DNA of 64,000 bases. Origin: Microvirga arabica (lineage in GTDB: Bacteria; Pseudomonadota; Alphaproteobacteria; Rhizobiales; Beijerinckiaceae). A model generated the notes under the pieces. That model was not told where the DNA came from. It did no database searches and was given only the letters and a program-made list of their open reading frames with translations. Position numbers and translations under genes: made by a program. Below, piece after piece: positions 52,341 through 64,000 of the stretch. Every line of letters starts with the position of its first letter. Positions within the stretch are counted from its first letter, which is position 1. Location: the NCBI RefSeq assembly GCF_016811235.1, contig NZ_JAFBID010000017.1:1-64000 (forward strand). The letters are read 5' to 3'.

Positions 52341-52737
52341 GTAGACGTCAGATCAACGCACACCCATCCACCCCACCAGGGTCGGTGGCGGCGGCATGGG
52401 CCTGATTTTGATTGATCTTGACCATCACCAGCCTGTCAGAGCACATACAATCCAGCTTGTGAATACATTCATTTCGGTATTCTCCGCCGACGACAATGCC
52501 AATGGCCGATTCTGGCACTCCTGAGACGTAAGCGGTCGGTTCGCTTTGGATCGGAACATCGGACTTTCCCGTCAGTGAGCAAAGTTCACTACCTGACCCA
52601 GACCTAACAAGCATGCTACGGTGCTGAACCCGGCCACTCCGCCAAAGAGTCCTGACCGATTTTCCCTATAAGGGCACCCTGCATCTGATGTGATGACCCG
52701 GTCTGCCCGACGACATCCCAGGAAATCGACCATCGTT
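52341..52737. other. Interval between the IS5 remnant and the DUF938 gene
   Basis: Nothing is recognised in these 397 bases. An 88-codon minus-strand frame (52614-52348) is open but matches no family, and its C-terminal end runs into the IS5 remnant, so I did not call it. Confidence 0.4.
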
Positions 52738-53352
52738 ATGACGAACTCACAGAACATGGATGCGGCCCTGACCTCTCCATCGGTGGCGCGGAACCGGGAT
52801 CCAATCCTGGCCGCCCTGCAGCCGGTTCTTCCAGCCAGCGGACTGGTTCTGGAGATTGCCAGCGGGACCGGCGAGCACGCTCTTTATTTCGCCTCCGCTC
52901 TGCCGCACCTGATGTGGCAGCCCACCGATCAGGACGAGCAGGCCCTGAACAGCATCGCCGCTCATCGCGCAGCTTCAGGGCTGCCCAATCTTCTTGCGCC
53001 GTTGAGGCTCGATGCCTCTGCCCCGGACTGGCCCGTCGAGCGGGCTGACGCTCTCGTCGCCATCAACATGGTCCATATCTCCCCCTGGCGGGCGACGCAC
53101 GGGCTCATGGCCGGGGCGGGACGGGTGCTTCCGCCCGGCGGCGTGCTCTTTCTCTACGGGGCCTACAAGGAGAAAGGCGCCCACACGGCTCCCAGCAATG
53201 AGGCCTTTGACCAGGACATCAGACGCCGGAATCCGGAGTGGGGCGTCCGTGACCTGGAAGAGGTGGCTGACCTCGCAAGGGCGCATGGGCTGGACCTCGC
53301 CGAGCGCATCGCAATGCCCGCCAACAATCTCAGCCTCGTGTTCCGAAGGTAG
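52738..53352 (+). CDS. DUF938 family SAM-dependent methyltransferase-like protein
   Basis: A 204-residue protein of the DUF938 family. The methyltransferase nucleotide motif is VLEIASGTGEHALYFASALP, followed by WQPTDQDEQALNSIAAH, NMVHISPWRATHGLMAGAGR and LFLYGAYKEKGAHTAPSNEA. The substrate is not known. ATG 52738 is chosen; ATG 52756 is possible, and the open frame starts at 52690. Confidence 0.88.
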   Translation: MTNSQNMDAALTSPSVARNRDPILAALQPVLPASGLVLEIASGTGEHALYFASALPHLMWQPTDQDEQALNSIAAHRAASGLPNLLAPLRLDASAPDWPVERADALVAINMVHISPWRATHGLMAGAGRVLPPGGVLFLYGAYKEKGAHTAPSNEAFDQDIRRRNPEWGVRDLEEVADLARAHGLDLAERIAMPANNLSLVFRR

Positions 53353-53483
53353 GCGGGCTCGGACCGAAGTTGCCCTGCAGCGCCCTCTCGCTCATTCAGC
53401 GCACCGAGTCCGATGCAGGGCAGCAATCCCCTTGCGAAAACATAAGCATATACTAAATTAGATTTGACTTATAGATTGCAGGT

Positions 53484-53825
53484 ATGCGTATGCCCCGTCT
53501 GAAACTCGACCTGGAGACCTTCGAGAAGCAGGCGACGGAGGTCGCGGACATCCTGCGGGCGCTCGCCAACGAGCGGCGGCTGATGATCCTGTGCAAGCTG
53601 GTGGAGTGGGGCGAGGCCAATGTCACCGCGCTGGCCGAAGCCGTGGGCCTGTCGCAATCGGCCCTGTCGCAGCATCTGGCCAAGATGCGGGATGAAGGCA
53701 TCGTCGCCACCCGGCGCGAGAGCCAGACGATCTGGTACCGCATCGCCGACCCGCGCATCGAGCAGCTGTTCGCAACCCTGTACAGCCTGTTCTGCAAGCA
53801 GGCGAAGGAGGGCGGGTCTGCCTGA
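53484..53825 (+). CDS. ArsR-family repressor, SqrR/BigR-like
   Basis: A 113-residue winged-helix regulator (ILRALANERRLMILCKLVEW; LAEAVGLSQSALSQHLAKMR; GIVATRRESQTIWYRIADPR). It has two cysteines, C37 in LMILCKL and C104 in YSLFCKQ, at nearly the same places and spacing as the redox pair of SqrR and BigR, which form a persulfide bridge and release DNA. That points to sensing of reactive sulfur rather than metals. The promoter just upstream is AT-rich and contains ATAAG and CTTAT arms around TATACTAAATTAGATTTG, a plausible operator. No sulfide-oxidising gene lies directly downstream. Confidence 0.82.
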   Translation: MRMPRLKLDLETFEKQATEVADILRALANERRLMILCKLVEWGEANVTALAEAVGLSQSALSQHLAKMRDEGIVATRRESQTIWYRIADPRIEQLFATLYSLFCKQAKEGGSA

Positions 53826-54037
53826 CGTTGGGTTGGTGCCACCTCAACCGGCCCGTCACGACCTCCAGCCACACGCAGGTTTTGCAACGCGCGATTTGCA
53901 TTGTGGCCGGGAGCAGGGGCACGGCCTTCGATCTTCCTATGCGAGGGTGAAGACAAGGCGGAGGAGCAGGGGAGGCTGCGGCGCAAGGCGCCTCTTGGGC
54001 GGTGAGGGGCTGGCGCCAGCCCACCATCGCAACTCAG

Positions 54038-54838
54038 CTATTCCGTCAGCAACCGGTTCAGCGTGCCCGTCAATGCCTCACGAGAAATCTCGCCAACGTG
54101 GATGGATCGGAGCTTTCCGTCCGCGCCGATGAAGAGGGTGACCGGCAAACCTGGCGTGGCGTAGTGGCGAGGCACGTCCATGCGCGTGTCGAGCAACACG
54201 TTCGACAGTGTGAGCTTCTCATTGTTCAGGTAGCCCTCAATCGTTGTGCGCCTCTCGCCCTGGTTCACGAACAGGAACGTGATGTCGTCTCCCGCTGCTG
54301 CCATCTCGGCCATCATCGGCATCTCCCGCCGGCACGGCGGACACCAACTCGCCCAGAGGTTCAGGACGACGGGTTTTCCCGTGAACGCCGTCAGGGATGT
54401 GCTGCCTCCCCTGATGTTCTCCAAGGCGACGTCCGGCATCGGCGTCGCAGGCGTGGCGTTGGTCAGTTGCCACACGACGTTCCACGCGAACAGCGCTATG
54501 GCGAGACTGACCACTGCACCAATGGCGGCGCGGCGCGTGCGCGCCAGGGCCACGGACATAGCGATGATGGAGCCGGCTGCCCATGGCCAGGAGAAGCCTC
54601 CCTGCCAGACGGCCAGGATGCGCCAAGGCTCAGTAGCGAAACTGGAGGCGTTCTCGATCACGTGCCCGAGACGCGCCGTGATCAGGCCTGCGATAAGGGA
54701 CCAGGTCGACCATCGCCCGATGTAGGGATCCAGGCGGGAGGACAGGACCGACGTTACGGCCATGAAGACACCGATGCCAACGATGGCCGCGAGGCGATCA
54801 CCGGCGAAGATGAAGGGACCAATTGAAACGGCTTGCAT
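54038..54838 (-). CDS. Membrane thiol-disulfide protein: Lgt-like membrane part fused to TlpA-like thioredoxin
   Basis: A 266-residue protein. The first 125 residues hold four hydrophobic segments, with ARLGHVIENASSF and EPWRILAVWQGGFSWPWAA resembling part of prolipoprotein diacylglyceryl transferase. The C-terminal 140 residues are a TlpA/ResA-type thioredoxin domain facing the periplasm: VVLNLWASWCPPCRREMPMM with the CPPC active site, VNQGERRTTIEGYL, and the cis-Pro loop TPGLPVTLFIG. It probably reduces periplasmic disulfides. A 17-base box shared with the dsbD operon lies 22 bases upstream of its ATG. Confidence 0.85.
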   Translation of the reverse strand: MQAVSIGPFIFAGDRLAAIVGIGVFMAVTSVLSSRLDPYIGRWSTWSLIAGLITARLGHVIENASSFATEPWRILAVWQGGFSWPWAAGSIIAMSVALARTRRAAIGAVVSLAIALFAWNVVWQLTNATPATPMPDVALENIRGGSTSLTAFTGKPVVLNLWASWCPPCRREMPMMAEMAAAGDDITFLFVNQGERRTTIEGYLNNEKLTLSNVLLDTRMDVPRHYATPGLPVTLFIGADGKLRSIHVGEISREALTGTLNRLLTE

Positions 54839-54860
54839 GCGTCGCTGGTCCGGGATCCAG

Positions 54861-54877
54861 CTTAAGGCAGCCTTAAG
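54861..54877 (-). promoter_or_regulatory. PmrA/QseB-like box upstream of the TlpA-fusion gene
   Basis: Read on the minus strand this is CTTAAGGCTGCCTTAAG: two CTTAAG half-sites with a five-base spacer (11-base repeat), the arrangement bound by PmrA/QseB-type OmpR regulators. The identical 17 bases, in the same orientation relative to the gene, occur at 60527-60543. Confidence 0.7.
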
Positions 54878-55025
54878 AGTTCAGGATCGGTCGCAATGAG
54901 ATGAAGCATCCCTGCGCTTGCTGTTGATGATCCAGCTTCAGCCATCCACCACCCCGGGATCGTTGCTTTTTAACCATGCATCCTGGGTGCGGAGGAGAAT
55001 TGCGGCGCGTTGGGATCTGCATCGA

Positions 55026-55151
55026 TCATCCGATCAACCAGACCCTGATGACCAGGCTCACCGCTCCGGTCGTGCCGACGCCGGCGGCCCAGAGACCGAC
55101 GAACCACAGCCAGCGGCTCGCGGCGGAGCCTTGTTCGAGATCGCCGCCCAT
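55026..55151 (-). CDS. DUF2474 small membrane protein of the bd oxidase operon
   Basis: A 41-residue single-span protein (SAASRWLWFVGLWAAGVGTT, then GAVSLVIRVWLIG). It starts in an overlap with the cioB stop (TGATG), and DUF2474 proteins commonly follow CioB. By analogy with CydX it probably stabilises the oxidase; this is inferred from position and size. It is the last gene of the operon. Confidence 0.8.
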   Translation of the reverse strand: MGGDLEQGSAASRWLWFVGLWAAGVGTTGAVSLVIRVWLIG

Positions 55152-56158
55152 CAGTGATACCCCTCGTGACCTGTCTTGCCGCGGAACACCCAGTACGAGT
55201 ACCCGGTATAGACAAGGATGATCGGGATCAGCACGCTCGCGCCAACCAGCATGAATTGGAGGCTCACGTTCGGGGCAGCAGCTTGGTGAATGGTGACGGC
55301 GTTCGGCACTACGTAGGGGAACATGCTCACCCCCAAGCCAAGCAGGCAAAGGCCGAACAGCCCCAGCGTCAGCAGGAACGGCCAGTACTCCCAGCGTCGC
55401 ATCAGGCTCACCAGCAGCGCCCCGGAGGTGATGCCCACGAGCAAGGGCACCTGTGCGGTGAACAGCACCTGCGGCCAGGCAAACCAGCGCTCGTAGTAGG
55501 CGCCACTCAGGAACGGCGTCGCCGCACTGACCGCACCGATACAGACAATCAAACCGATGGCGAGCTTACCGGCGAGACGGAAGCTGTGGTCCTGAACCGC
55601 ACCTTCAGTCTTCATCACGAGCCATGTTGCGCCGAGCAGGGCGTAGCCGACCACGAGGCTGACCCCGACCAGGAGGCTGAAGGGCGTGATCCAGTCCCAC
55701 CAGCCGCCGGCGTAGGAGCGTCCCTCGACCGCAATGCCCTGGAGCAGGGCGCCGAGCGTGATGCCCTGCGCCAGGGTGGCGACGATGGATCCCATCGTGA
55801 ATGCGAAGTCCCAGTAGCGGCGATGGCCAGGATCGCGCCAGCGGAACTCGAAGGCGACCCCGCGGAAGATCAGCGCCAGCACCATGGCGATGATCGGCGC
55901 GTAAAGAGCCGGCAGGATGATGGCGTAGGCCAGCGGGAAGGCCGCCATGAGACCGCCGCCGCCGAGCACCAGCCAGGTCTCGTTGCCATCCCAGACCGGG
56001 GCGACGGAGTTCATGGCGCTGTCGCGTTCCGGTCCCGGCGCGAAGAACGGGAACAGGATGCCAATGCCGAGATCGAAGCCGTCCATCACGACGTAAGCGA
56101 AGACCGCAAACGCGATGACAAAGGCCCAGAGGGTCGGGAGATCAAAGACAGAGATCAT
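55151..56158 (-). CDS. cioB: Cytochrome bd-type quinol oxidase subunit II, CioB
   Basis: A 335-residue membrane subunit with about eight to nine hydrophobic segments. It starts FDLPTLWAFVIAFAVFAYVVMDGFDLGIG, the usual CydB N-terminus (shortened here: VVMDGFDLGIG), and has VWDGNETWLVLGGGGLMAAF and RGVAFEFRW. It assembles with subunit I to oxidise ubiquinol and reduce oxygen to water. Three bases separate it from cioA. Confidence 0.95.
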   Translation of the reverse strand: MISVFDLPTLWAFVIAFAVFAYVVMDGFDLGIGILFPFFAPGPERDSAMNSVAPVWDGNETWLVLGGGGLMAAFPLAYAIILPALYAPIIAMVLALIFRGVAFEFRWRDPGHRRYWDFAFTMGSIVATLAQGITLGALLQGIAVEGRSYAGGWWDWITPFSLLVGVSLVVGYALLGATWLVMKTEGAVQDHSFRLAGKLAIGLIVCIGAVSAATPFLSGAYYERWFAWPQVLFTAQVPLLVGITSGALLVSLMRRWEYWPFLLTLGLFGLCLLGLGVSMFPYVVPNAVTIHQAAAPNVSLQFMLVGASVLIPIILVYTGYSYWVFRGKTGHEGYH

Positions 56159-56161
56159 GGT

Positions 56162-57583
56162 TCAGGCCTTCGCGCCGATGGTGCGGGCAGGGTCGACCGA
56201 GGGTGCCGGGGTGATGCCGGCAGTCCGGATCGGCTCGCGTCCGGCCTCGGGCCCGGTCTCGCCCGGATGCGGGGCCTTGCCCATGAGCTTGAGAATGTAT
56301 CCGGTGCCCGCGCCGAACACGATGAAGTAGACGACGATGAAAGTCAGCAGCGACGCGGCAACCGCTGGAGCCTCAAGAGGTGAGGCCGACTGTGCTGTTC
56401 TAAGCAGACCATAAACGGTGAACGGCTGTCGCCCGACCTCGGTGGTCACCCAGCCGGCGATCACGGCGACGAAGCCTGCAGGCCCCATGGCCAGCGCGAG
56501 CCAGTGCAGCGGGCGCCAGTCGTAGAGCCGGCCGCGGAAGCCCGCCCACAGGCTGAGCAAGCCAAGAGCCAGCATCGCGAAGCCCAGACCCACCATGATG
56601 CGGAACGACCAGAACACCACCGGCACATAGGGCCAGTTGGCGCGGTCGACGGTGTCGAGTCCGTCCATGGGCGCGTTCAGGTCATGCTTGAGGATGAGCG
56701 AGGACGCCTTCGGGATTGCGATGGCGTTGCGCACCGTGCCGGCCTCCTGATCGGGAATGCCGAACAGGATCAGGGGTGCGCCCTCCGGGTGGCTTTCAAA
56801 ATGCCCTTCCATGGCCATGACCTTGGCGGGCTGGTGCTCAAGCGTATTGAGGCCGTGCATGTCGCCGGCGAAGATCTGGAGCGGGGCGACAACGGCCACC
56901 ATGCCCATGGCCATCGAGAACATCACCTGGGCACCCTTGTTGGTACGCTCCCGCAGCAGGTGCCAGGCACCGACGCCGCCCACGACCAGAGCGGTCGTGA
57001 GATAGGCCGCCATCACCGTGTGCACCAAGCGGTAAGGAAAGGACGGGTTGAAGATGATCGCCCACCAATCCTCCGGCACGAACTGCCCGGCCTCGTTGAT
57101 GCCGTAGCCGACCGGCGTCTGCATCCACGAGTTGGCGGACAGGATCCAGAAAGCCGAGATGAAGGTGCCGACCGCAACCGCAAGCGTCGCGGCGAAATGC
57201 AGCTTGCGGCCGACCCGGCCCATGCCGAACAGCATGATGCCGAGAAAGCCGGCCTCCAAGAAGAACGCGGTCATGACCTCGTAGGCCATGAGCGGCCCGA
57301 TAACCGGCCCGGCCTTGTCGGAGAACACCGACCAGTTGGTGCCGAACTGGTAGGACATGACGATGCCCGAGACCACGCCCATGGCGAACGCTAGGGCGAA
57401 GATCTTGAGCCAGTACTTGAACAGGTTGAGATAGACCTCGCGCCCGGTCCACAGCCAAAGCCCCTCCAGCACCGCAAGATAGCTTGCCAGCCCGATGGAG
57501 AAGGACGGGAAGATGAAATGGAAGGAGACCGTGAACGCGAACTGAAAACGCGCCAGGAGCAGCGCGTCGAACTGGTCGAACAT
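56162..57583 (-). CDS. cioA: Cytochrome bd-type quinol oxidase subunit I, CioA
   Basis: The 473-residue haem-bearing subunit. Haem ligands are visible in FAFTVSFHFIFPSFSIG (His), YRLVHTVMAAYL (His) and VVFWSFRIMVGLG (Met). The quinol-site region carries GRQPFTVYGLLRT. The length and short Q-loop fit the cyanide-insensitive CioA branch rather than E. coli CydA. It follows its regulator gene by two bases, so regulator, cioA, cioB and the DUF2474 gene form one operon, likely controlled by oxygen through a FixK/FNR box. Confidence 0.95.
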   Translation of the reverse strand: MFDQFDALLLARFQFAFTVSFHFIFPSFSIGLASYLAVLEGLWLWTGREVYLNLFKYWLKIFALAFAMGVVSGIVMSYQFGTNWSVFSDKAGPVIGPLMAYEVMTAFFLEAGFLGIMLFGMGRVGRKLHFAATLAVAVGTFISAFWILSANSWMQTPVGYGINEAGQFVPEDWWAIIFNPSFPYRLVHTVMAAYLTTALVVGGVGAWHLLRERTNKGAQVMFSMAMGMVAVVAPLQIFAGDMHGLNTLEHQPAKVMAMEGHFESHPEGAPLILFGIPDQEAGTVRNAIAIPKASSLILKHDLNAPMDGLDTVDRANWPYVPVVFWSFRIMVGLGFAMLALGLLSLWAGFRGRLYDWRPLHWLALAMGPAGFVAVIAGWVTTEVGRQPFTVYGLLRTAQSASPLEAPAVAASLLTFIVVYFIVFGAGTGYILKLMGKAPHPGETGPEAGREPIRTAGITPAPSVDPARTIGAKA

Positions 57584-57585
57584 TT

Positions 57586-58170
57586 CTACTTGTCCTTGGG
57601 GTCGTCCCGGCGGCTCTTCTTCGATCCTGGCACGACGAAGAGGCGGTCCTTCATCTCCAAGATCTTCTGTACCTTCGAGCCGAGCGTCAGGAGCTGAACG
57701 AGGCGCTCGGTGTCGAGCCGCTGCACGTCGGCGTACCAGCCTGTGAGCAGCTCGAAGAGGTCGTGCATCTCGCGCATGCGCTCCTGCGCATGGCGCTCCT
57801 CGGCGCTGGCGGGCTCCTGCATGAGCACCTCGCGCAGGAGGGTCATGGTCGGGTCGATTTCCCGCTTCTTCCGCTCCTCGACGAGCGTGCGGACAATCTG
57901 CCAGATGTCGTCGGGCGTCGAGAAGTAGTCGCGCCGGTCCCCGGGCTTGTGCTGAAGCCGGACGAGGTTCCAGGCCTGCAACTCCTTGAGCCCCATGCTG
58001 ACGTTGGAGCGGGAGACGCCGAGCCGTTCGACGATGTCCTCGGCGTTCAGCGGCTCCTTCGAGATGAACAGCAGGGCGTAGATCTGGCCGACGGTACGGT
58101 TGATGCCCCAGCGCGAGCCCATCTCGCCGAAGTGGAGCACGAAGGTCTGGACGAGGGGAGGGAGGTTCAC
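57586..58170 (-). CDS. GbsR/MarR-family regulator of the bd oxidase operon
   Basis: A 194-residue winged-helix regulator of the GbsR group (VQTFVLHFGEMGSRWGINRT, VGQIYALLFISKEPLNAEDI, LGVSRSNVSMGLKELQAWNL), followed by a helical C-terminal half. I chose the GTG at 58170, which has AGGAG five bases upstream. An ATG at 58215 also opens the frame, but it would put a 20-base perfect palindrome inside the coding region and touch a FixK/FNR box. The regulator probably represses its own operon through the palindrome. It is the first gene of the cio operon. Confidence 0.85.
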   Translation of the reverse strand: MNLPPLVQTFVLHFGEMGSRWGINRTVGQIYALLFISKEPLNAEDIVERLGVSRSNVSMGLKELQAWNLVRLQHKPGDRRDYFSTPDDIWQIVRTLVEERKKREIDPTMTLLREVLMQEPASAEERHAQERMREMHDLFELLTGWYADVQRLDTERLVQLLTLGSKVQKILEMKDRLFVVPGSKKSRRDDPKDK

Positions 58171-58183
58171 GGCATCTCCTGAA

Positions 58184-58203
58184 ATTTCAGAATATTCTGA
58201 AAT
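58184..58203. promoter_or_regulatory. Perfect 20-bp palindrome, probable operator of the cio operon
   Basis: The core is TTTCAGAATATTCTGAAA (58185-58202), and one more base pairs on each side. It lies 14 bases upstream of the preferred GTG start of the regulator and downstream of the FixK/FNR box, where a bound repressor would block transcription. The binding protein is inferred to be the regulator encoded next. Confidence 0.75.
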
Positions 58204-58214
58204 ATCGGTATGCA

Positions 58215-58228
58215 TTGATGTAAGTCAA
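58215..58228. promoter_or_regulatory. FixK/FNR-type box
   Basis: TTGATGTAAGTCAA fits the TTGAY-N4-RTCAA consensus of FNR/FixK proteins on both strands. Counting -41.5 from its centre puts the start of transcription near 58180, just before the GTG start. This suggests activation under low oxygen. The rest of 58229-58425 holds no recognised gene. Confidence 0.75.
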
Positions 58229-58425
58229 GTGCGCTGGGGATGCCCGACGCTCCCCATATTTCTTTCCGGCCGGGCCGCGGTTGCTACCGGATGCACGGGG
58301 CGTCTGCAGCCAGCGGCGGTCGCCGGATCCTTTCGGAAACTTCCTGCAGACCACCCTGCCGTCCCGGCCCCAGTTCCATGACAAACCGATTGGTCCGGGG
58401 TGAGGTGACGGTGGCTGAGACAGAT

Positions 58426-59832
58426 TCAGTTGTTGGCGGACGGGGCTATGCGTGCTGAACCTGTCTCTGAATACGCCCCGACCGAGCCCATTGCGAACCC
58501 AGCGCGCACTCCGGACCGATCCTGCCGGTTGCGGAGAGCGAAGGAGGCCTTGGCCCGCCTGAGCGCCGCGTCCACGATGGCAAGACCGAGACCGCTGCCG
58601 ACGGCGCTGCGATGGCGTCCACGGAAGAACCGATCGGTCACTTGGCCGATCTCGTCCTCCGGGATGCCGGGGCCCTCGTCTTCCACGGCGATCACCGGCG
58701 GGCTCGCGCTACCGTCGAGGAACCACCGCACGCGCCCGCCCGCCGGCGAGTGCTGCACGGCGTTCTCATGCAGGTTGCGCACGGCGAGATGAAAGAGCTC
58801 CCGGTTCATCCGGATCGTCGTGCGGTGGAGCGCGGGGTCGATCTCCACCGCAACATCCGTGTGGCTGGCTCTGAGACTGGCGGCGATGTCCTCGATGGCG
58901 CGCCCGACCGCGATGTCCTGCGGCTCGCCCTCGTCCGGAACGGCATCGAGCTCGGACATGGCGAGCAGCTGGCGCACAAGCCGGCTGGTGCGGTCGACGG
59001 CCACCAATGTTTGCCTCATCGCCCCTTCGCGTGTCTCCGAGTCCCTCGCCGCCAGGGCCACCTGGACCTGGGTGCGCAGGCCGGCCAGCGGGGTGCGCAG
59101 CTCGTGTGCGGCAAAGGCGGTGAAGCTGCGCTCGTGCTCGCGGGCCGCCGCGACCTTGCCGAACAGGCCGTTGAGGGCGTCGACCACGGGACGGATCTCC
59201 GAGGGCGGGCTGCCGACGCTGACCGGGCTCAGGTCCTCGGGGCCGCGCGCCTTGAGCCCCTGTGTGAGGCGGCGCAGGGGCCGCAGCCCGCTCCCGACGC
59301 TGGCCCAGATCAGGAAGGCGAGCAGGGGGACCACGACGATGGCCGGCAGAACAAGTCCCCGGACGAGGTCGGTGACGAGGCGGTCGCGCAATCCGAGCCG
59401 GTCGCCGACCAGCACACGAATGCCTTTTTCACGGTCGGCGACGGCGTAGACCCGCCACGGCTCGCCACCGACCTCCTGCTCCGAGAACCCGCTGGACTCG
59501 TTCGACAGCGCGGCCTCCGGCGCGCCGCTGGAGCGGCCGATCAACCGGCCGTCGAACGACCAGATTTGGCACGAAAGCTGGCGCTCGTACCCCACATGCG
59601 TTGGCTCCGGGAGCGGGATGGAGGCCGGGGCTTCGCCGGCGCGGGCCGACAGCGCGATCTCGCCGCTGGTGACCAGCGAGCCGACCATGCGGGCCGCCTC
59701 CATGAGGCGGGTGTCGAGCACGTGCTGCAGCTGCCGCTTGGTGTCGAGATAGATCCAGGCGGTCGCGAACAGCCAGATGCATGTCGTGGCGGCGATGAGG
59801 ATGATGAAAAGGCGAGTGCGGATCGAGCTCAT
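58426..59832 (-). CDS. Sensor histidine kinase, QseC/PmrB-like
   Basis: A 468-residue membrane kinase. An N-terminal membrane segment (RLFIILIAATTCIWLFATAW), a periplasmic sensor of about 130 residues, a second membrane segment (LVLPAIVVVPLLAFLIWASV), a HAMP-like linker, HisKA with FTAFAAHELRTPLAGLRTQV and HATPase motifs (NLHENAVQHSPAGG, VEDEGPGIPEDE, GSGLGLAIVDAAL). It begins one base after the response regulator stop. I used the ATG at 59832 because the frame open beyond it lies over the regulator gene. The signal is unknown. Confidence 0.92.
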   Translation of the reverse strand: MSSIRTRLFIILIAATTCIWLFATAWIYLDTKRQLQHVLDTRLMEAARMVGSLVTSGEIALSARAGEAPASIPLPEPTHVGYERQLSCQIWSFDGRLIGRSSGAPEAALSNESSGFSEQEVGGEPWRVYAVADREKGIRVLVGDRLGLRDRLVTDLVRGLVLPAIVVVPLLAFLIWASVGSGLRPLRRLTQGLKARGPEDLSPVSVGSPPSEIRPVVDALNGLFGKVAAAREHERSFTAFAAHELRTPLAGLRTQVQVALAARDSETREGAMRQTLVAVDRTSRLVRQLLAMSELDAVPDEGEPQDIAVGRAIEDIAASLRASHTDVAVEIDPALHRTTIRMNRELFHLAVRNLHENAVQHSPAGGRVRWFLDGSASPPVIAVEDEGPGIPEDEIGQVTDRFFRGRHRSAVGSGLGLAIVDAALRRAKASFALRNRQDRSGVRAGFAMGSVGAYSETGSARIAPSANN

Positions 59833-59833
59833 G

Positions 59834-60493
59834 TCAGGCGCTCCGGAGACGGTAGCCGAGGCCGCGCACGGTCTCGATGGCGTCGCGCCCGATCTTGACC
59901 CGCAGGTGATGGACGTGGACCTCGACGGCGTTGCTCTCCACGTCCTCCTCCCAGCCGTAGAGCCGGTCGGCGAGTTGGTCCTTCGACAGCACCGCGCCGG
60001 GATGCCGCATAAGAGCCTCCAGGATCGAGAACTCGCGGCGGGAGAGGCCAACCGGATTGCCGTCGATCTCGACGGTGCGGCGGCCTGGATCGAGTTCAAT
60101 GCCGTTCCAGGACATGGTCGGCGTTGCCCGCCCGGCGGCCCGGCGGGAGATGGCGCGCAGACGGGCGGCGACCTCGTCGAGATCAAAGGGTTTTCCGAGA
60201 TAGTCGTCCGCGCCGCTGTCGAGGCCGCCGATCCGGTCGGCCACGGTGTCTTTTGCGGTCAGCAGCAGAACCGGCGTCGCGTCCTGGCGCCGACGCAGCT
60301 CGCGCAGGATGTCGAGCCCGGAGCCGTCCGGCAGCATCAGGTCAAGAACAAGAGCGTCGAACTCGGCTGTGGCGAGCGCGGCCCGGGCGTCGCCGCAGGA
60401 CGCCACCGCATCGACCGTGAAGCCGTGAATGCCAAGGCCGACCTTCAGCCCGTCGAGCAGCATCGCATCATCTTCAACCACAAGAATACGCAT
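59834..60493 (-). CDS. Response regulator, OmpR/QseB/PmrA type
   Basis: A 219-residue two-component regulator with a receiver (ILVVEDDAMLLDGLKVGLGI, phospho-Asp in FDALVLDLMLPDGSGLDIL, LLLTAKDTVADRIGGLDSGA) and a winged-helix DNA-binding domain (LSRREFSILEALMRHPGAVL, ESNAVEVHVHHLRVKIGRDA). It is divergent from the dsbD operon. A CTTAAG-N5-CTTAAG box of the kind bound by such regulators lies in the gap and again before the TlpA-fusion gene. Confidence 0.94.
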   Translation of the reverse strand: MRILVVEDDAMLLDGLKVGLGIHGFTVDAVASCGDARAALATAEFDALVLDLMLPDGSGLDILRELRRRQDATPVLLLTAKDTVADRIGGLDSGADDYLGKPFDLDEVAARLRAISRRAAGRATPTMSWNGIELDPGRRTVEIDGNPVGLSRREFSILEALMRHPGAVLSKDQLADRLYGWEEDVESNAVEVHVHHLRVKIGRDAIETVRGLGYRLRSA

Positions 60494-60526
60494 CGAGCAC
60501 CTCCGCGGGCTCTGTCGCCCGCTACC

Positions 60527-60543
60527 CTTAAGGCTGCCTTAAG
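60527..60543 (+). promoter_or_regulatory. PmrA/QseB-like box between the response regulator and dsbD genes
   Basis: CTTAAGGCTGCCTTAAG has two CTTAAG half-sites 11 bases apart. It ends 47 bases before the dsbD start and 34 bases from the response regulator ATG. It is identical to the box at 54861-54877 on the opposite strand. Confidence 0.72.
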
Positions 60544-60590
60544 GTTGGCCGGGAGTTTGGGGGGACACTGTCCTGGTCGCGAGGATTCGC

Positions 60591-62444
60591 TTGTCCCACA
60601 ACCTTATCCGAATTGTGTTCGCGCTCGCTGTGCTGGTCCTTGGCTCCGCCGGGGCGCGGGCGCAGTTCAACATCCCGAAGGCTGACGAGGTGTTCAGGCT
60701 CAGCGCCTCGAAGAGCGCCGATGGCGGTATCGTCCTCGATTGGGCGATTGCGCCGGACATGTATCTCTATCGCGACAAAGTGATCGTCTCGGCCTCTCCC
60801 GGCGACGCCCAGCCGATGCCGGTCGAAACCAGCTCCGGCCAGAGGAAAGACGATCCCACCTTCGGCGAGACGGAGGTCTACCATGATGCGGCCCGCGCGA
60901 CGGTGTCGGCCGGCTCGCTGGCCGCCGCCGGCTCGCCGCGGATGGTCCATGTCACCTATCAGGGCTGCGCCGAGAAGCTCGGCATATGCTATCCGCCTGA
61001 GACAAAGGCCATCGAGCTTGCCACGCTTCCGGTGGCGGCAAACCAGGGCGCGGCGGCTTCGAACGGCGGTTTACCCTGGAGCACCGTGCCAATCGGCCCC
61101 TCGCAGGCGGTTGAGACCACCGCGTCGGACACGGCCGTGCCGGCGACACCACAAACGGTCCCGCAACGCGATGCCTGGATGAGCGGCAGCCTGGCGTCGG
61201 TCTTGGCGACCTTCCTCGGCTTCGGCCTTCTGCTGACCTTCACACCCTGCGTGCTGCCGATGATCCCGATCCTGTCGGGCATGCTCGCCCGCAGCGGAGG
61301 CCAACTCTCGGCGGGGCGGGGCTTCGCGCTCTCGACTACCTACGTGCTCGCCATGGCAGCCGCCTATGGCCTGCTCGGCATCGCCGCGGCCTGGTCCGGG
61401 CAGAACCTGCAGGCCGCGCTTCAGACATCGTGGGCGCTGGGCGCCATGAGCCTGCTGTTCATGGTCCTGGCACTGTCGATGTTCGGCCTGTTCGAGCTCC
61501 AGCTCCCCAGCTCCTGGACCAGTTTCATCTCGGGTCGCACCTCGGGGATGGGCGGCTCGCTTCCCGGCGCGGCGGCCCTCGGCTTCACCTCGGCCCTGAT
61601 CGTCGGCCCCTGCGTGACACCTCCGCTGGCCGGGGCTCTTCTCTACGTCTCGCAGACCGGTGACATGATGCGCGGCGCGGCGGCCCTGTTCATGCTGGGC
61701 CTCGGCATGGGCCTGCCGCTGATCGTGTATGGCACCGTTGGGGCCAAGGCCCTGCCGAAATCCGGTCTCTGGCTGGTGCGCGTCAAGCAAGCCTTCGGCG
61801 TCGTCTTCCTCGGCGTCGCCATCGCGATGGTCTCGCGCATCGCACCGCCTCAGGTGTCGCTGGCGCTCTGGGCGCTGCTTGCCATCAGTGCCGGCGTGTT
61901 CCTCGGCGCTTTCGACCCGGCGCCCGGCTGCGCGATCCGCCGGGTCGCGAAGGCAGCGGGCATTGCCGCGGTTCTCTACGGCGGAACGCTGGTGGTGGGC
62001 GCCGCGTCCGGGGCGACGGATCCGTTGCAGCCTCTGGCCACCTTGGCACGGGGCTCGGCGCCCGCCGCAACGAGTGAGCTTGCAGCCACCCGCGTCACCA
62101 CGCCGGCGGAGTTCGACGCCGCGGTCGAGACGGCCCGGGCGCAGGGCAAGCCGATCCTCGTCGACTTCACCGCCGAGTGGTGCGTGACCTGCAAGCAGAT
62201 CGACCGCGACGTCTTTGCCGATCCCACCGTGAAGGCAAGGCTCAAGGATATCCCCTTCATCCGTGCCGACGTGACGGAATACAACGAGGCGAGTCGCAAT
62301 CTCATGCGGCGCTTTGGCGTGGTCGGGCCACCGACGATCCTGTTCCTCGACCCAACGACGGGACGAGAGCTCGCCCCGGCCCGCACCATCGGCATCATTG
62401 ATGCGGATGGTTTCCTCCAGAAGCTCACAACGGCAGGCGCATGA
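60591..62444 (+). CDS. dsbD: Thiol:disulfide interchange protein, DsbD/ScsB family
   Basis: A 617-residue membrane reductase that carries electrons from cytosolic thioredoxin to the periplasm. Signal peptide (NLIRIVFALAVLVLGSAGARA), periplasmic alpha domain with the cysteine pair in YQGCAEKLGICYPPE, eight hydrophobic segments with the membrane cysteines in TFTPCVLPMIPILSGM and IVGPCVTPPLAGAL, and a C-terminal thioredoxin domain with FTAEWCVTCKQID. The TTG at 60591 has GAGGA five bases upstream and starts directly before the signal peptide. It overlaps the next gene by four bases. Confidence 0.93.
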   Translation: MSHNLIRIVFALAVLVLGSAGARAQFNIPKADEVFRLSASKSADGGIVLDWAIAPDMYLYRDKVIVSASPGDAQPMPVETSSGQRKDDPTFGETEVYHDAARATVSAGSLAAAGSPRMVHVTYQGCAEKLGICYPPETKAIELATLPVAANQGAAASNGGLPWSTVPIGPSQAVETTASDTAVPATPQTVPQRDAWMSGSLASVLATFLGFGLLLTFTPCVLPMIPILSGMLARSGGQLSAGRGFALSTTYVLAMAAAYGLLGIAAAWSGQNLQAALQTSWALGAMSLLFMVLALSMFGLFELQLPSSWTSFISGRTSGMGGSLPGAAALGFTSALIVGPCVTPPLAGALLYVSQTGDMMRGAAALFMLGLGMGLPLIVYGTVGAKALPKSGLWLVRVKQAFGVVFLGVAIAMVSRIAPPQVSLALWALLAISAGVFLGAFDPAPGCAIRRVAKAAGIAAVLYGGTLVVGAASGATDPLQPLATLARGSAPAATSELAATRVTTPAEFDAAVETARAQGKPILVDFTAEWCVTCKQIDRDVFADPTVKARLKDIPFIRADVTEYNEASRNLMRRFGVVGPPTILFLDPTTGRELAPARTIGIIDADGFLQKLTTAGA

Positions 62445-62944
62445 TGGCTGCCGGATCTTTCCGTTCCCGCGCCCCCACGCGGACGGACGCATGGTCGCGC
62501 AGGACATTCCTGAGGTTTGCAACCCTGTCGTCAGGATTGGCGCTCCTGCCGCCGATAGCGGGAGCGCAGGCCGCGGAACTGGCATTCGCACATGTCACCA
62601 CACGAGAGGCATTCAAGGCGGCGGTCAGGCGCGCGCTCGCCCGGAGGAAGCCGGTGCTGGCGTACTTCACAGCGGAGTGGTGCCCGATCTGCAAGAGCAT
62701 CGACAGCCGCGTGTTCTCCAATCCTGTGATCAAGAGGCGGCTTGAGCGCATCGCCCTGGTGCGGGCGGACGTGACGGCTGCGGATGCCGGCAACCGGGCG
62801 CTCATGGAACACCTTCGGGTCGTGGGCCCGCCGACGATGTTCGTCATCGATCCGAAGGATGGGCGGGAGATGCCCGGAACCCGGCTGACCGGGGCCGTCG
62901 ACGCCAACCTCTTCCTCGACACGATCAATCTCGCAGGGCTTTAG
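62441..62944 (+). CDS. Exported thioredoxin-like protein with CPIC motif
   Basis: A 167-residue protein. The N-terminus has a twin-arginine motif and hydrophobic stretch (WSRRTFLRFATLSSGLALLP) ending near AGAQA, so it is probably Tat-exported. The thioredoxin domain resembles the DsbD C-terminal domain: VLAYFTAEWCPICKSID, then VRADVTAADAGNRALMEHLR and VVGPPTMFVIDPKDG. It probably takes electrons from the DsbD protein, with which it is translationally coupled (ATGA overlap). Confidence 0.86.
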   Translation: MMAAGSFRSRAPTRTDAWSRRTFLRFATLSSGLALLPPIAGAQAAELAFAHVTTREAFKAAVRRALARRKPVLAYFTAEWCPICKSIDSRVFSNPVIKRRLERIALVRADVTAADAGNRALMEHLRVVGPPTMFVIDPKDGREMPGTRLTGAVDANLFLDTINLAGL

Positions 62945-62983
62945 GCCCGCGACCGTCCTTCATCGCATTCCAAGGAGTCAACA

Positions 62984-63613
62984 ATGCTCTTCCTGACCAG
63001 ATCTCTCTTCGCCGCCGTTTTGGCTGCATTGTCTGTCGCTTTCGTCATGCCGGCCGCGCCGGCTCTGGCCCAGGACATCTCGGTCGACGCAATCCTGAAC
63101 GATCCGCAGGCGCCCTTTGCCGGCAACCCGAAGGGCGATGTCACCATTGTGGCTTTCCTCGATTACAACTGCCCCTTCTGCAAGAAGTCGGCACCGGACC
63201 TGGAGAAGCTCGTCAAGGCCGACGGCAAGATCAGGCTCGTCTACAAGGACTGGCCCTTTCTCGCGCCCACCTCCGTTCATGGAGCGCAGCTCGCGCTCGC
63301 CGCCAAGTACCAAGGCAAGTACGAGCAGGTGCATCATGCATTGATGGGCATTCCGGGCAAACGGGTCGGCAAGGAGACAATGACCGAAGCTGTCCAGAAG
63401 TCCGGCGTCGACATGGAGCGGCTGAACGCGGACCTGAAGCAGCACGGCACCGAGATCCAGGCGCTGATCCAACGCAACCTCGACCAGGCCGATGCGCTTG
63501 GGCTGACGGGGACGCCGGTCTACCTGATCGGCCCGTTCAAGGCGTCCGGAGCGCTCAGCTACGAACAGTTCCACAAAGCAGTCGCCGAAGCCCGCGCTAA
63601 GGGCAAGCAGTGA
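62984..63613 (+). CDS. DsbA-family periplasmic thiol oxidoreductase, ScsC-like
   Basis: A 209-residue exported protein with a signal peptide (SLFAAVLAALSVAFVMPAAP, cleavage after ALA) and a DsbA-type thioredoxin fold: DVTIVAFLDYNCPFCKKSAP with a CPFC active site, YKDWPFLAPTSVHGAQLALA and the cis-Pro loop GLTGTPVYLIG. It resembles the BdbD/ScsC group that works with DsbD-like reductases. CAAGGAG precedes the ATG by eight bases. It is the third gene of the probable operon. Confidence 0.9.
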   Translation: MLFLTRSLFAAVLAALSVAFVMPAAPALAQDISVDAILNDPQAPFAGNPKGDVTIVAFLDYNCPFCKKSAPDLEKLVKADGKIRLVYKDWPFLAPTSVHGAQLALAAKYQGKYEQVHHALMGIPGKRVGKETMTEAVQKSGVDMERLNADLKQHGTEIQALIQRNLDQADALGLTGTPVYLIGPFKASGALSYEQFHKAVAEARAKGKQ

Positions 63614-63663
63614 CCCGCATCCGCATCCCTCTGTTTCCGATCTCGCTCGCTCACAGGCCATCC

Positions 63664-64000
63664 ATGTTCAAGCTCGTAAGGCCGGCAGGCCTGCTCCGTC
63701 TTCTTGCCCTCATCCTGCCGGCCGCTCTGGCCGCCTGCAACACGACCGCAAGCGCGCCGCCTCAACCGATGGCCGCGGCGCCGGCTGTCGATCCGGTGAC
63801 GGCCGAGCGCTATGCCGCGGTGACCACCGACAAGCATCCGGTGCCCGGTGTCGATCCCACCACGCTCAAGCCGCGCAACGTGCGCCAGCTCGTGGATTAC
63901 GCGACTGCTGAGAAGCCAGGTACCATCGTGATCGATACGAACGCCCGCTTCATCTACCTCGTGCAGGAGGGCGGCAAGGCGCTGCGCTACGGCGTCGGCG
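63664..64000 (+). CDS. L,D-transpeptidase (YkuD family), N-terminal part
   Basis: The frame runs off the window end (112 codons seen). It starts with a lipoprotein signal (RLLALILPAALAACNTT, lipobox LAAC), a proline/alanine-rich linker, and then KPGTIVIDTNARFIYLVQEG and GKALRYGVGV, the usual start of a YkuD catalytic domain; the catalytic SHGC region lies beyond the window. Such enzymes cross-link peptidoglycan or attach lipoproteins. It follows the DsbA-like gene by 50 bases. Confidence 0.82.
   Translation, partial: MFKLVRPAGLLRLLALILPAALAACNTTASAPPQPMAAAPAVDPVTAERYAAVTTDKHPVPGVDPTTLKPRNVRQLVDYATAEKPGTIVIDTNARFIYLVQEGGKALRYGVG

Follow-up and report, generated by a model that had tools for sequence, protein, structure and literature searches.

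In a 64,000-nucleotide (nt) stretch of Microvirga arabica DNA (positions 1 to 64,000 of contig NZ_JAFBID010000017.1, here called the window), the same 17-base-pair (bp) sequence, CTTAAGGCTGCCTTAAG, is found ahead of two groups of thiol-disulfide genes. Both copies are very probably binding sites for a response regulator that is encoded beside one of them, and the regulator and its kinase would represent an alphaproteobacterial branch of the two-component system DsbRS, known from Pseudomonas. The genes are named accordingly below. The assignment is drawn from sequence comparisons, chiefly the linkage of the box to dsbR across genera, a cysteine in the sensor domain of the kinase, and the gene arrangement.

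The two boxes and the adjoining genes

The features of the window are as follows, with protein lengths in amino acids (aa).

60527..60543, no strand: predicted DsbR box 1, CTTAAGGCTGCCTTAAG, between the divergent genes dsbR (start 33 nt away) and dsbD (start 47 nt away)
54861..54877, no strand: predicted DsbR box 2, CTTAAGGCTGCCTTAAG, 22 nt upstream of the start of tlpF, the TlpA-fusion gene
59834..60493, minus strand: dsbR, OmpR-family response regulator of the QseB/PmrA group, 219 aa; Pfam Response_reg and Trans_reg_C, with H193 and H195 as in PmrA
58426..59832, minus strand: dsbS, QseC-like sensor histidine kinase with a 2CSK_N sensor domain and an invariant Cys88 (codon 59569-59571), from family searches and alignments
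60591..62444, plus strand: dsbD, membrane protein-disulfide reductase (NCBIfam DsbD, Pfam), at the head of the divergent gene run
62441..62944, plus strand: thioredoxin-like protein (WCPIC), overlapping the end of dsbD, from its reading frame and a domain search
62984..63613, plus strand: DsbA-like thioredoxin-fold protein (NCPFC; Pfam Thioredoxin_4, DSBA)
63610..64000, plus strand: 5′ part of an L,D-transpeptidase lipoprotein gene, clipped by the window end and identified through a complete copy on contig C163
54038..54838, minus strand: tlpF, an Lgt-like membrane segment joined to a TlpA/ResA-type thioredoxin domain (WCPPC), from domain searches
55151..58215, minus strand: genes presumed to be cydB and cydA, plus a gene for a MarR/GbsR-like regulator, in the interval that separates dsbS from box 2; excluded from the regulon

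The initial annotation of this DNA had reported the identical boxes, and a scan of the window confirms them as exact matches, on the plus strand at 60527-60543 and on the minus strand at 54861-54877. With up to 3 mismatches allowed these are the only two places in the window that match; in 100 shuffles of the window the matches averaged 0.06 and were always fewer than 4. The annotation had also given the boxes the same orientation relative to each gene. The exact matches do lie on opposite strands, but the 17-mer is a perfect inverted repeat about a central A/T, and the opposite strand of each site differs by one mismatch; thus the orientation hangs on a single base and is nearly uninformative. 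Box 1 had been described as preceding the dsbD operon, which is correct but incomplete, as it also faces the divergent regulator gene.

In the whole genome (246 contigs, 6.67 megabases (Mb)), CTTAAGGC(A/T)GCCTTAAG is found exactly four times, twice in the window and twice ahead of the matching genes of a duplicated cluster on contig C163; all four perfect copies precede genes of the two dsbRS clusters. After these the closest site differs from the 17-mer pattern at 2 positions; with up to 3 mismatches allowed the pattern has 19 sites and its reversed form 8. The base composition of the window predicts 0.0003 occurrences of the 17-mer, and 0.09 of CTTAAG-N5-CTTAAG, for a genome of 6.67 Mb. A chance identity, which the annotation had held to be very unlikely, is ruled out by this expectation together with the window shuffles, the genome scan and the dsbR-linked upstream sequences described below. 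The annotation had named an abundant motif unlinked to promoters as the outcome that would speak against it; in its own genome the perfect form, with four copies, is not abundant, and looser matches fall below their control.

The gene beside box 1 encodes, as had been proposed, a regulator of the QseB/PmrA group. Its best NCBIfam models are QseB (235.9 bits, cut-off 345) and PmrA (230.2 bits, cut-off 330); both cut-offs are missed, and judged by these scores DsbR is a relative of QseB and PmrA and neither of those two itself. DsbD passes its model (521 bits, cut-off 330) and has the Pfam domains DsbD_N, DsbD_TM and Thioredoxin_7. The dsbR gene, with dsbS downstream, is divergent from dsbD, which is the arrangement of DsbRS.

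Linkage of the box to dsbR across genera

With DsbR as the query 80 loci were retrieved, 25 of them at 59% identity or above (orthologues) and 55 at 50% or below (distant regulators). A perfect CTTAAG-N5-CTTAAG within 150 nt upstream is found in 22 of the 25 orthologues, at 32-52 nt, and in none of the 55 distant regulators or of 5000 shuffled upstream sequences. Seventeen of the 22 orthologue boxes match CTTAAG(G/C)C(A/T)G(G/C)CTTAAG. Spacers such as CCAGC break the palindrome, thus the common feature is a direct repeat of CTTAAG and not the whole palindrome. The similarity is confined to the box itself: among 31 aligned sites only one column outside it, an A two bases before the box, reaches 80%. 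In a sample of 248 genomes of the family the exact box is present in 4, and in all three besides the M. arabica genome it lies ahead of dsbR.

The same linkage is seen within the genus. Among 48 same-genus genomes a dsbR orthologue is found in six, with another in G282 that is cut at a contig end; a match in G183 has 48% identity only and was not counted as an orthologue. All 7 genomes of the genus with the cluster, that of M. arabica among them, contain the exact 17-mer, versus 0 of the 41 others.

H193 and H195 are kept in 25/25 DsbR orthologues versus 11/55 of the other regulators. Passages of PMC3973317 give these two residues as the likely base-reading residues of PmrA and describe PmrA binding to CTTAAG-type half-sites 5 bp apart, head to tail. 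The histidines have the same positions in DsbR, and the boxes have CTTAAG half-sites at the same 5-bp spacing, which bears out the suggestion of the initial annotation that the spacing suits regulators of the PmrA/QseB type. PmrA (BasR) is also the best solved-structure match of DsbR among the PDB matches listed (E 2.7e-51). No match named DsbS or DsbR was found among all 43 matches of one PDB search and the best 60 of 101 of the other. The differences from PmrA are in the targets, which here are thiol-disulfide genes and not polymyxin resistance genes, and in the score (230 bits versus the PmrA cut-off of 330).

The sensor-domain cysteine and the relation to Pseudomonas DsbRS

Cys88 of DsbS is invariant in 32 of 32 rows of dsbS orthologues (a few rows are second copies from one genome). 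In 17 kinases beside distant regulators the position is occupied by F (11), Y (3) or a gap (3), and never by cysteine.

A phylum-wide search with the kinase profile covered 397 genomes, 81 of which matched at E 1e-75. Besides the M. arabica region 30 were read. Ten of them belong to the same class, in which 11 other genomes matched (G687 is the one omitted), and 20 lie outside the class. Cys88 is present in all 10 same-class regions and in 4 of the 20 outside the class, and it is exactly in those 4 that dsbR has as neighbours dsbD, dsbG and a tlpF/dsbE-like gene; dsbD is found in none of the 16 outside-class regions without Cys88, within the stretch examined. In 7/10 same-class regions a perfect box is no more than 200 nt from dsbR, in two there are one-mismatch sites, and in L208 a perfect box lies between dsbD and a unit of an L,D-transpeptidase gene, dsbR and dsbS. 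In a tree of the joined regulator and kinase sequences, all 42 Cys88 rows fall on one side of a branch with support 100/99. This tree has 64 rows, with 6 of 70 omitted as long-branched or odd, and the cysteine column was retained in it. The Cys88 group includes the regulators that adjoin dsbD-dsbE-dsbG outside the class, as a DsbRS group should, and these rows we infer to be Pseudomonadaceae.

In P. aeruginosa the sensor-domain cysteine of DsbS is reportedly Cys82, a presumed counterpart of Cys88, and the DsbR motif TTA-N8-TTAA. Within the box described here TTAAGGCTGCCTTAA fits that motif, and a sensor-domain cysteine is common to both kinases. Sites of the TTA-N8-TTAA type are found within 200 nt of dsbR in 3 of the 4 outside-class Cys88 regions (L186, L195 and L197), and none near dsbR in L194 or in the 16 outside-class regions without Cys88.

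P. aeruginosa DsbRS (Yu et al. 2022, doi 10.1016/j.scib.2021.03.003) is described by citing papers as a copper sensor, in which copper binding blocks the phosphatase activity of DsbS and disulfide-bond genes are induced (passages of PMC10141476, PMC9233671 and PMC11195947); a response to silver is also reported (PMC11195947). During biofilm evolution of P. fluorescens, mutations were found in dsbS, in dsbDEG and in a predicted DsbR site between dsbR and dsbD (from passages of PMC13101516), the intergenic position that box 1 also occupies. The regulator and kinase genes are likewise divergent from dsbD in Pseudomonas, including P. fluorescens PFLU4380-4384, and DsbS falls in one sequence group with the Cys88 kinases beside dsbD-dsbE-dsbG, which are presumably of Pseudomonadaceae. 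The grouping with these regulators outside the class, and the arrangement of Pseudomonas DsbRS, make the pair most likely an alphaproteobacterial DsbRS. It differs in its gene run, which here is dsbD, a thioredoxin gene, a dsbA-like gene and an L,D-transpeptidase gene with the TlpA fusion separate, in the stricter box CTTAAG-N5-CTTAAG, and in the presence of two cluster copies in one genome. Among the titles and abstract openings of the open-licence papers listed, no alphaproteobacterial DsbRS regulon was found.

The predicted regulon in other genomes

Twenty-eight genomes were scanned for the box, 25 with dsbR orthologues from the DsbR query and three from the family sample. The perfect motif is found 68 times versus 6 for a reversed control, and is present in 25 of the 28 genomes. 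Sites that are distinct by flanking sequence and lie within retrieved stretches were annotated (62 of 68). A gene of a family represented in the window starts within 150 nt of 46 of these 62 boxes: dsbR at 29, DsbA-like at 15, dsbD at 14, L,D-transpeptidase at 12 and thioredoxin at 2, with double counting possible. Two more dsbR genes (L017 and L029) were labelled dsbS through the choice of frame. The count of 46 uses solely families from the window and its C163 copy; the labels doxX, small79, nuc5, dsbG, ldt, ldt31 and dsbA2 were derived from the box-led genes themselves. Thus the small envelope-redox regulon that the initial annotation had proposed has support from the relatives, both in the 22/25 orthologues and in the 46/62 boxes.

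Nine box-led genes, and the C163 copy, are L,D-transpeptidases by Pfam (YkuD). Thirteen L,D-transpeptidases were examined, 12 adjoining a box and one, the C163 copy, lying in the dsbD run. Outside the N-terminal signal/lipobox region a single cysteine, in the catalytic motif, is present in 12 of them; that of L031 has two. Most likely, to judge from these gene contexts, the regulon of this branch adds single-cysteine L,D-transpeptidases, DsbA-like proteins and the TlpA fusion to DsbRS.

The cluster is also found on plasmids. On a Pseudorhizobium flavum plasmid dsbRS is divergent from a run of dsbD, tlpA, an L,D-transpeptidase gene, dsbA and a second L,D-transpeptidase gene, with a perfect box between the two units and a one-mismatch box before the last gene. 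The Methylorubrum extorquens AM1 megaplasmid has a perfect CTTAAG-N5-CTTAAG at 948205-948221, between dsbD and dsbR. A Methylosinus OB3b plasmid carries dsbRS with a box, and insertion sequence (IS) elements; no dsbD is found within the stretch examined. A DsbR match of 60-80% identity is present in 54 plasmid records.

Several observations weigh against DsbR as the reader of these boxes and against the DsbRS grouping. In the M. arabica genome the loose motif shows no enrichment when 2 mismatches or fewer are allowed (73 sites versus 149 for the reversed control), and in the same-genus genomes the perfect motif with a loose spacer totals 16 sites versus 13, scattered, for the control. Of the two forms, perfect and loose, the perfect form alone carries information. 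The two one-mismatch sites of the genome lie one within an open reading frame and the other across the start of a 193-aa frame (C246 and C164), and neither, read in context, resembles a redox-gene promoter. Three dsbR orthologues (Stakelama, Sphingobium and Pacificimonas) have two-mismatch sites in place of a perfect box, and L212 and L213 carry one-mismatch boxes. In a sample of 387 genomes of the class a stricter degenerate box is found in the M. arabica genome only (0/386 others), yet G315, one of the 386, has the cluster with a one-mismatch box (that of L213); the absence is thus partly due to the strict pattern. Among the 55 distant regulators L045 has a one-mismatch site, and the QseB-like regulators L042-L044 have a perfect box starting 442-474 nt upstream, ahead of an intervening small gene; the motif is thus not exclusive to DsbR. 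Sixteen of the 62 boxes, 10 of them in Bradyrhizobium elkanii, have no window-family gene within 150 nt; the 16 include boxes ahead of a DsbG-like gene (L025), two 5′-nucleotidase-like genes and DoxX genes. One of the seven full-length tlpF copies of the genus, that of G299, lacks the box ahead of it. Finally the tree of all 70 rows gives the same split of the Cys88 rows with a support of only 13.

The duplicated cluster

Although right in substance, the initial annotation omitted both the known relative in Pseudomonas and a second copy of the cluster. The C163 cluster is a diverged duplicate of the window set, with dsbR-dsbS, the divergent dsbD, thioredoxin, dsbA-like and L,D-transpeptidase genes, and the TlpA fusion. 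The two copies have 81-89% DNA identity across three aligned blocks, and box 1 is perfect in the C163 copy. The clipped L,D-transpeptidase gene of the window begins at 63610 or at a more internal ATG; its complete C163 counterpart belongs to YkuD (Pfam) and has a single cysteine beyond the lipobox. The duplicated regions extend over L011 (contig C163 60000-75399) and over 52603-54879 and 58494-64000 of the window, and include flanking ArsR and methyltransferase genes. The same-genus genome G276 likewise has two dsbRS clusters.

Between dsbS and tlpF the C163 copy has a sodium:alanine symporter gene where the window has the cydAB and MarR-type genes. In four same-genus loci (G276 C23, G282, G283 and G299) tlpF follows immediately after dsbS, thus dsbR-dsbS-tlpF is probably the ancestral order, and box 2 would be an internal promoter that tlpF retained. 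Of the 7 full-length tlpF copies in the genus, 5 (among them the two of M. arabica) have a perfect box 2 and that of G283 has one with a single mismatch; this count omits partial or broken matches in G221, G282 and G290.

A possible mechanism and its alternatives

Binding by DsbR, its phosphorylation, activation as opposed to repression, and the nature of the signal are all steps that we infer. DsbS would detect thiol-reactive envelope stress through the periplasmic Cys88, the most likely stress being copper or another soft metal. Phosphorylated DsbR would then bind as a head-to-tail dimer to the tandem CTTAAG half-sites, 11 bp apart, and activate three units: dsbRS itself, the run from dsbD through the thioredoxin and dsbA-like genes to the L,D-transpeptidase gene, and the TlpA fusion. 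By way of their products electrons may cross the membrane and reach periplasmic proteins of the thioredoxin fold, which could keep cysteine enzymes reduced, notably the single-cysteine L,D-transpeptidases. Copper is favoured as the signal because the studied relative uses copper and because the presumed clients are copper-sensitive.

A wider proposal, for which our confidence falls somewhat short of even, is that one cysteine sensor joins a periplasmic reducing chain to peptidoglycan cross-linking. DsbR would induce together DsbD as the source of electrons, the carriers (thioredoxin, DsbA-like protein and TlpA fusion) and new single-cysteine L,D-transpeptidases, a client sensitive to copper and oxidation, and so provide for wall repair under copper or thiol stress, in a system that occurs in various alphaproteobacteria and is also plasmid-borne. 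Cpx and LdtD offer a precedent for an L,D-transpeptidase tied to a two-component system of envelope stress. CpxAR is of another subfamily, has another box, and lacks the adjacent dsbD-centred gene set. The induction of LdtD by Cpx is described in E. coli (PMC4791840, in part). E. coli DsbG is reported to protect the lone cysteine of L,D-transpeptidases (Depuydt 2009, as cited in a passage of PMC3526765), and copper is reported to inhibit these enzymes (passages of PMC9302775). The enzyme classes are the same as those found here, a thioredoxin-fold reductase supplied by DsbD, and transpeptidases that depend on a single cysteine, but in E. coli the protection is described as biochemistry, whereas here the genes have a common gene run or a common box. 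The copper-inhibited, DsbG-protected L,D-transpeptidases are here connected with genes that could keep them reduced. The analysis gives an operator and a mapped, predicted regulon for an alphaproteobacterial DsbRS, with Cys88 as a testable candidate for sensing. It is a clean predicted regulon that would link periplasmic reduction with peptidoglycan cross-linking, and a variant of the known DsbRS, not a new kind of system.

The main alternative concerns the signal. It is possible, although the less favoured view, that DsbR does control these promoters but that the signal, rather than copper, is reactive sulfur (sulfite or persulfide) or an oxidation of thiols in general; Cys88 would then act as a switch of the redox or persulfide type. 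What makes reactive sulfur the chief competitor is that several clusters have sulfur-responsive or sulfur-metabolic genes nearby. An ArsR-type repressor gene beside tlpF (53484-53825) resembles the sulfite-sensing BigR (90.7 bits, below the cut-off of 155), a gene for a sulfite-oxidase-type molybdopterin oxidoreductase follows the second tlpF, and bigR, blh and YeeE/YedE genes adjoin the cluster on the Pseudorhizobium flavum plasmid. These adjoining genes may however be independent of the cluster, and the studied relative responds to copper and silver (PMC11195947, in part).

That box 2 instead serves repression, by DsbR or another regulator, with the promoter upstream and blocked by the box, is unlikely. 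Between the end of the box and the conserved start codon there are only 22-23 nt, scant space for a -10 element plus a leader, and no ribosome-binding site is evident between box 2 and the tlpF start. A leaderless message with PhoB-like spacing would however fit, and the other boxes lie 32-52 nt upstream of dsbR and mostly 40-55 nt upstream of dsbD, as activation predicts. The position of box 2 would fit a leaderless activated message, and repression is the less likely reading.

It is still less probable that the chief controller of the boxes is another CTTAAG-binding regulator, a paralogue of the QseB or PmrA kind. PmrA itself has boxes of this build, and three QseB-like operons elsewhere bear such boxes, but the exact box follows dsbR within the genus (7/7 versus 0/41) and its position follows dsbR across genera. 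The view that the identity of the boxes is a by-product of duplication, or that the palindrome serves a structural role or recombination, is hardly credible: the paralogous block is 81-89% identical and the homology upstream of tlpF stops at the box, but the window boxes precede unrelated genes and have unrelated flanks, and the view is rejected on the persistence of the box upstream of dsbR in many genera despite diverged flanks and palindrome-breaking spacers.

Other box-led genes and neighbouring genes

Thirteen perfect CTTAAG-N5-CTTAAG are found in the genome of Bradyrhizobium elkanii (L020, L135, L136 and L137), several with the spacer TGGAA. Some lie ahead of genes for small secreted-looking proteins and some ahead of DoxX genes, as if the regulon had expanded. 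In Paracoccus indicus (L031 13473) a box lies between divergent genes for cytochrome oxidase subunit I and a 5′-nucleotidase-like protein, and in L131 a 5′-nucleotidase-like gene is likewise box-led. The boxes of the three QseB-like operons are at L042 9559, L043 9529 and L044 9178, before a small exported protein gene that we take to resemble ygiW. In two same-genus genomes CTTAAGAGCTGCTTAAG (spacer AGCTG; L225 1741 and L226 1792) lies 184 nt upstream of a regulator gene, presumably FtcR-like, and none of the dsb families searched is found near these sites.

ArsR genes with 78-98% identity are found near other clusters (L035, L210, L219 and L221). In the region 55151-58215 the MarR assignment is by Pfam, and the names cydA and cydB are presumptive labels for the reading frames. 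The MarR/GbsR-like gene and cydAB lie directly after dsbS both in the window and in G284 (L220 8227-11282), which suggests that they form a transferable bd-oxidase unit.

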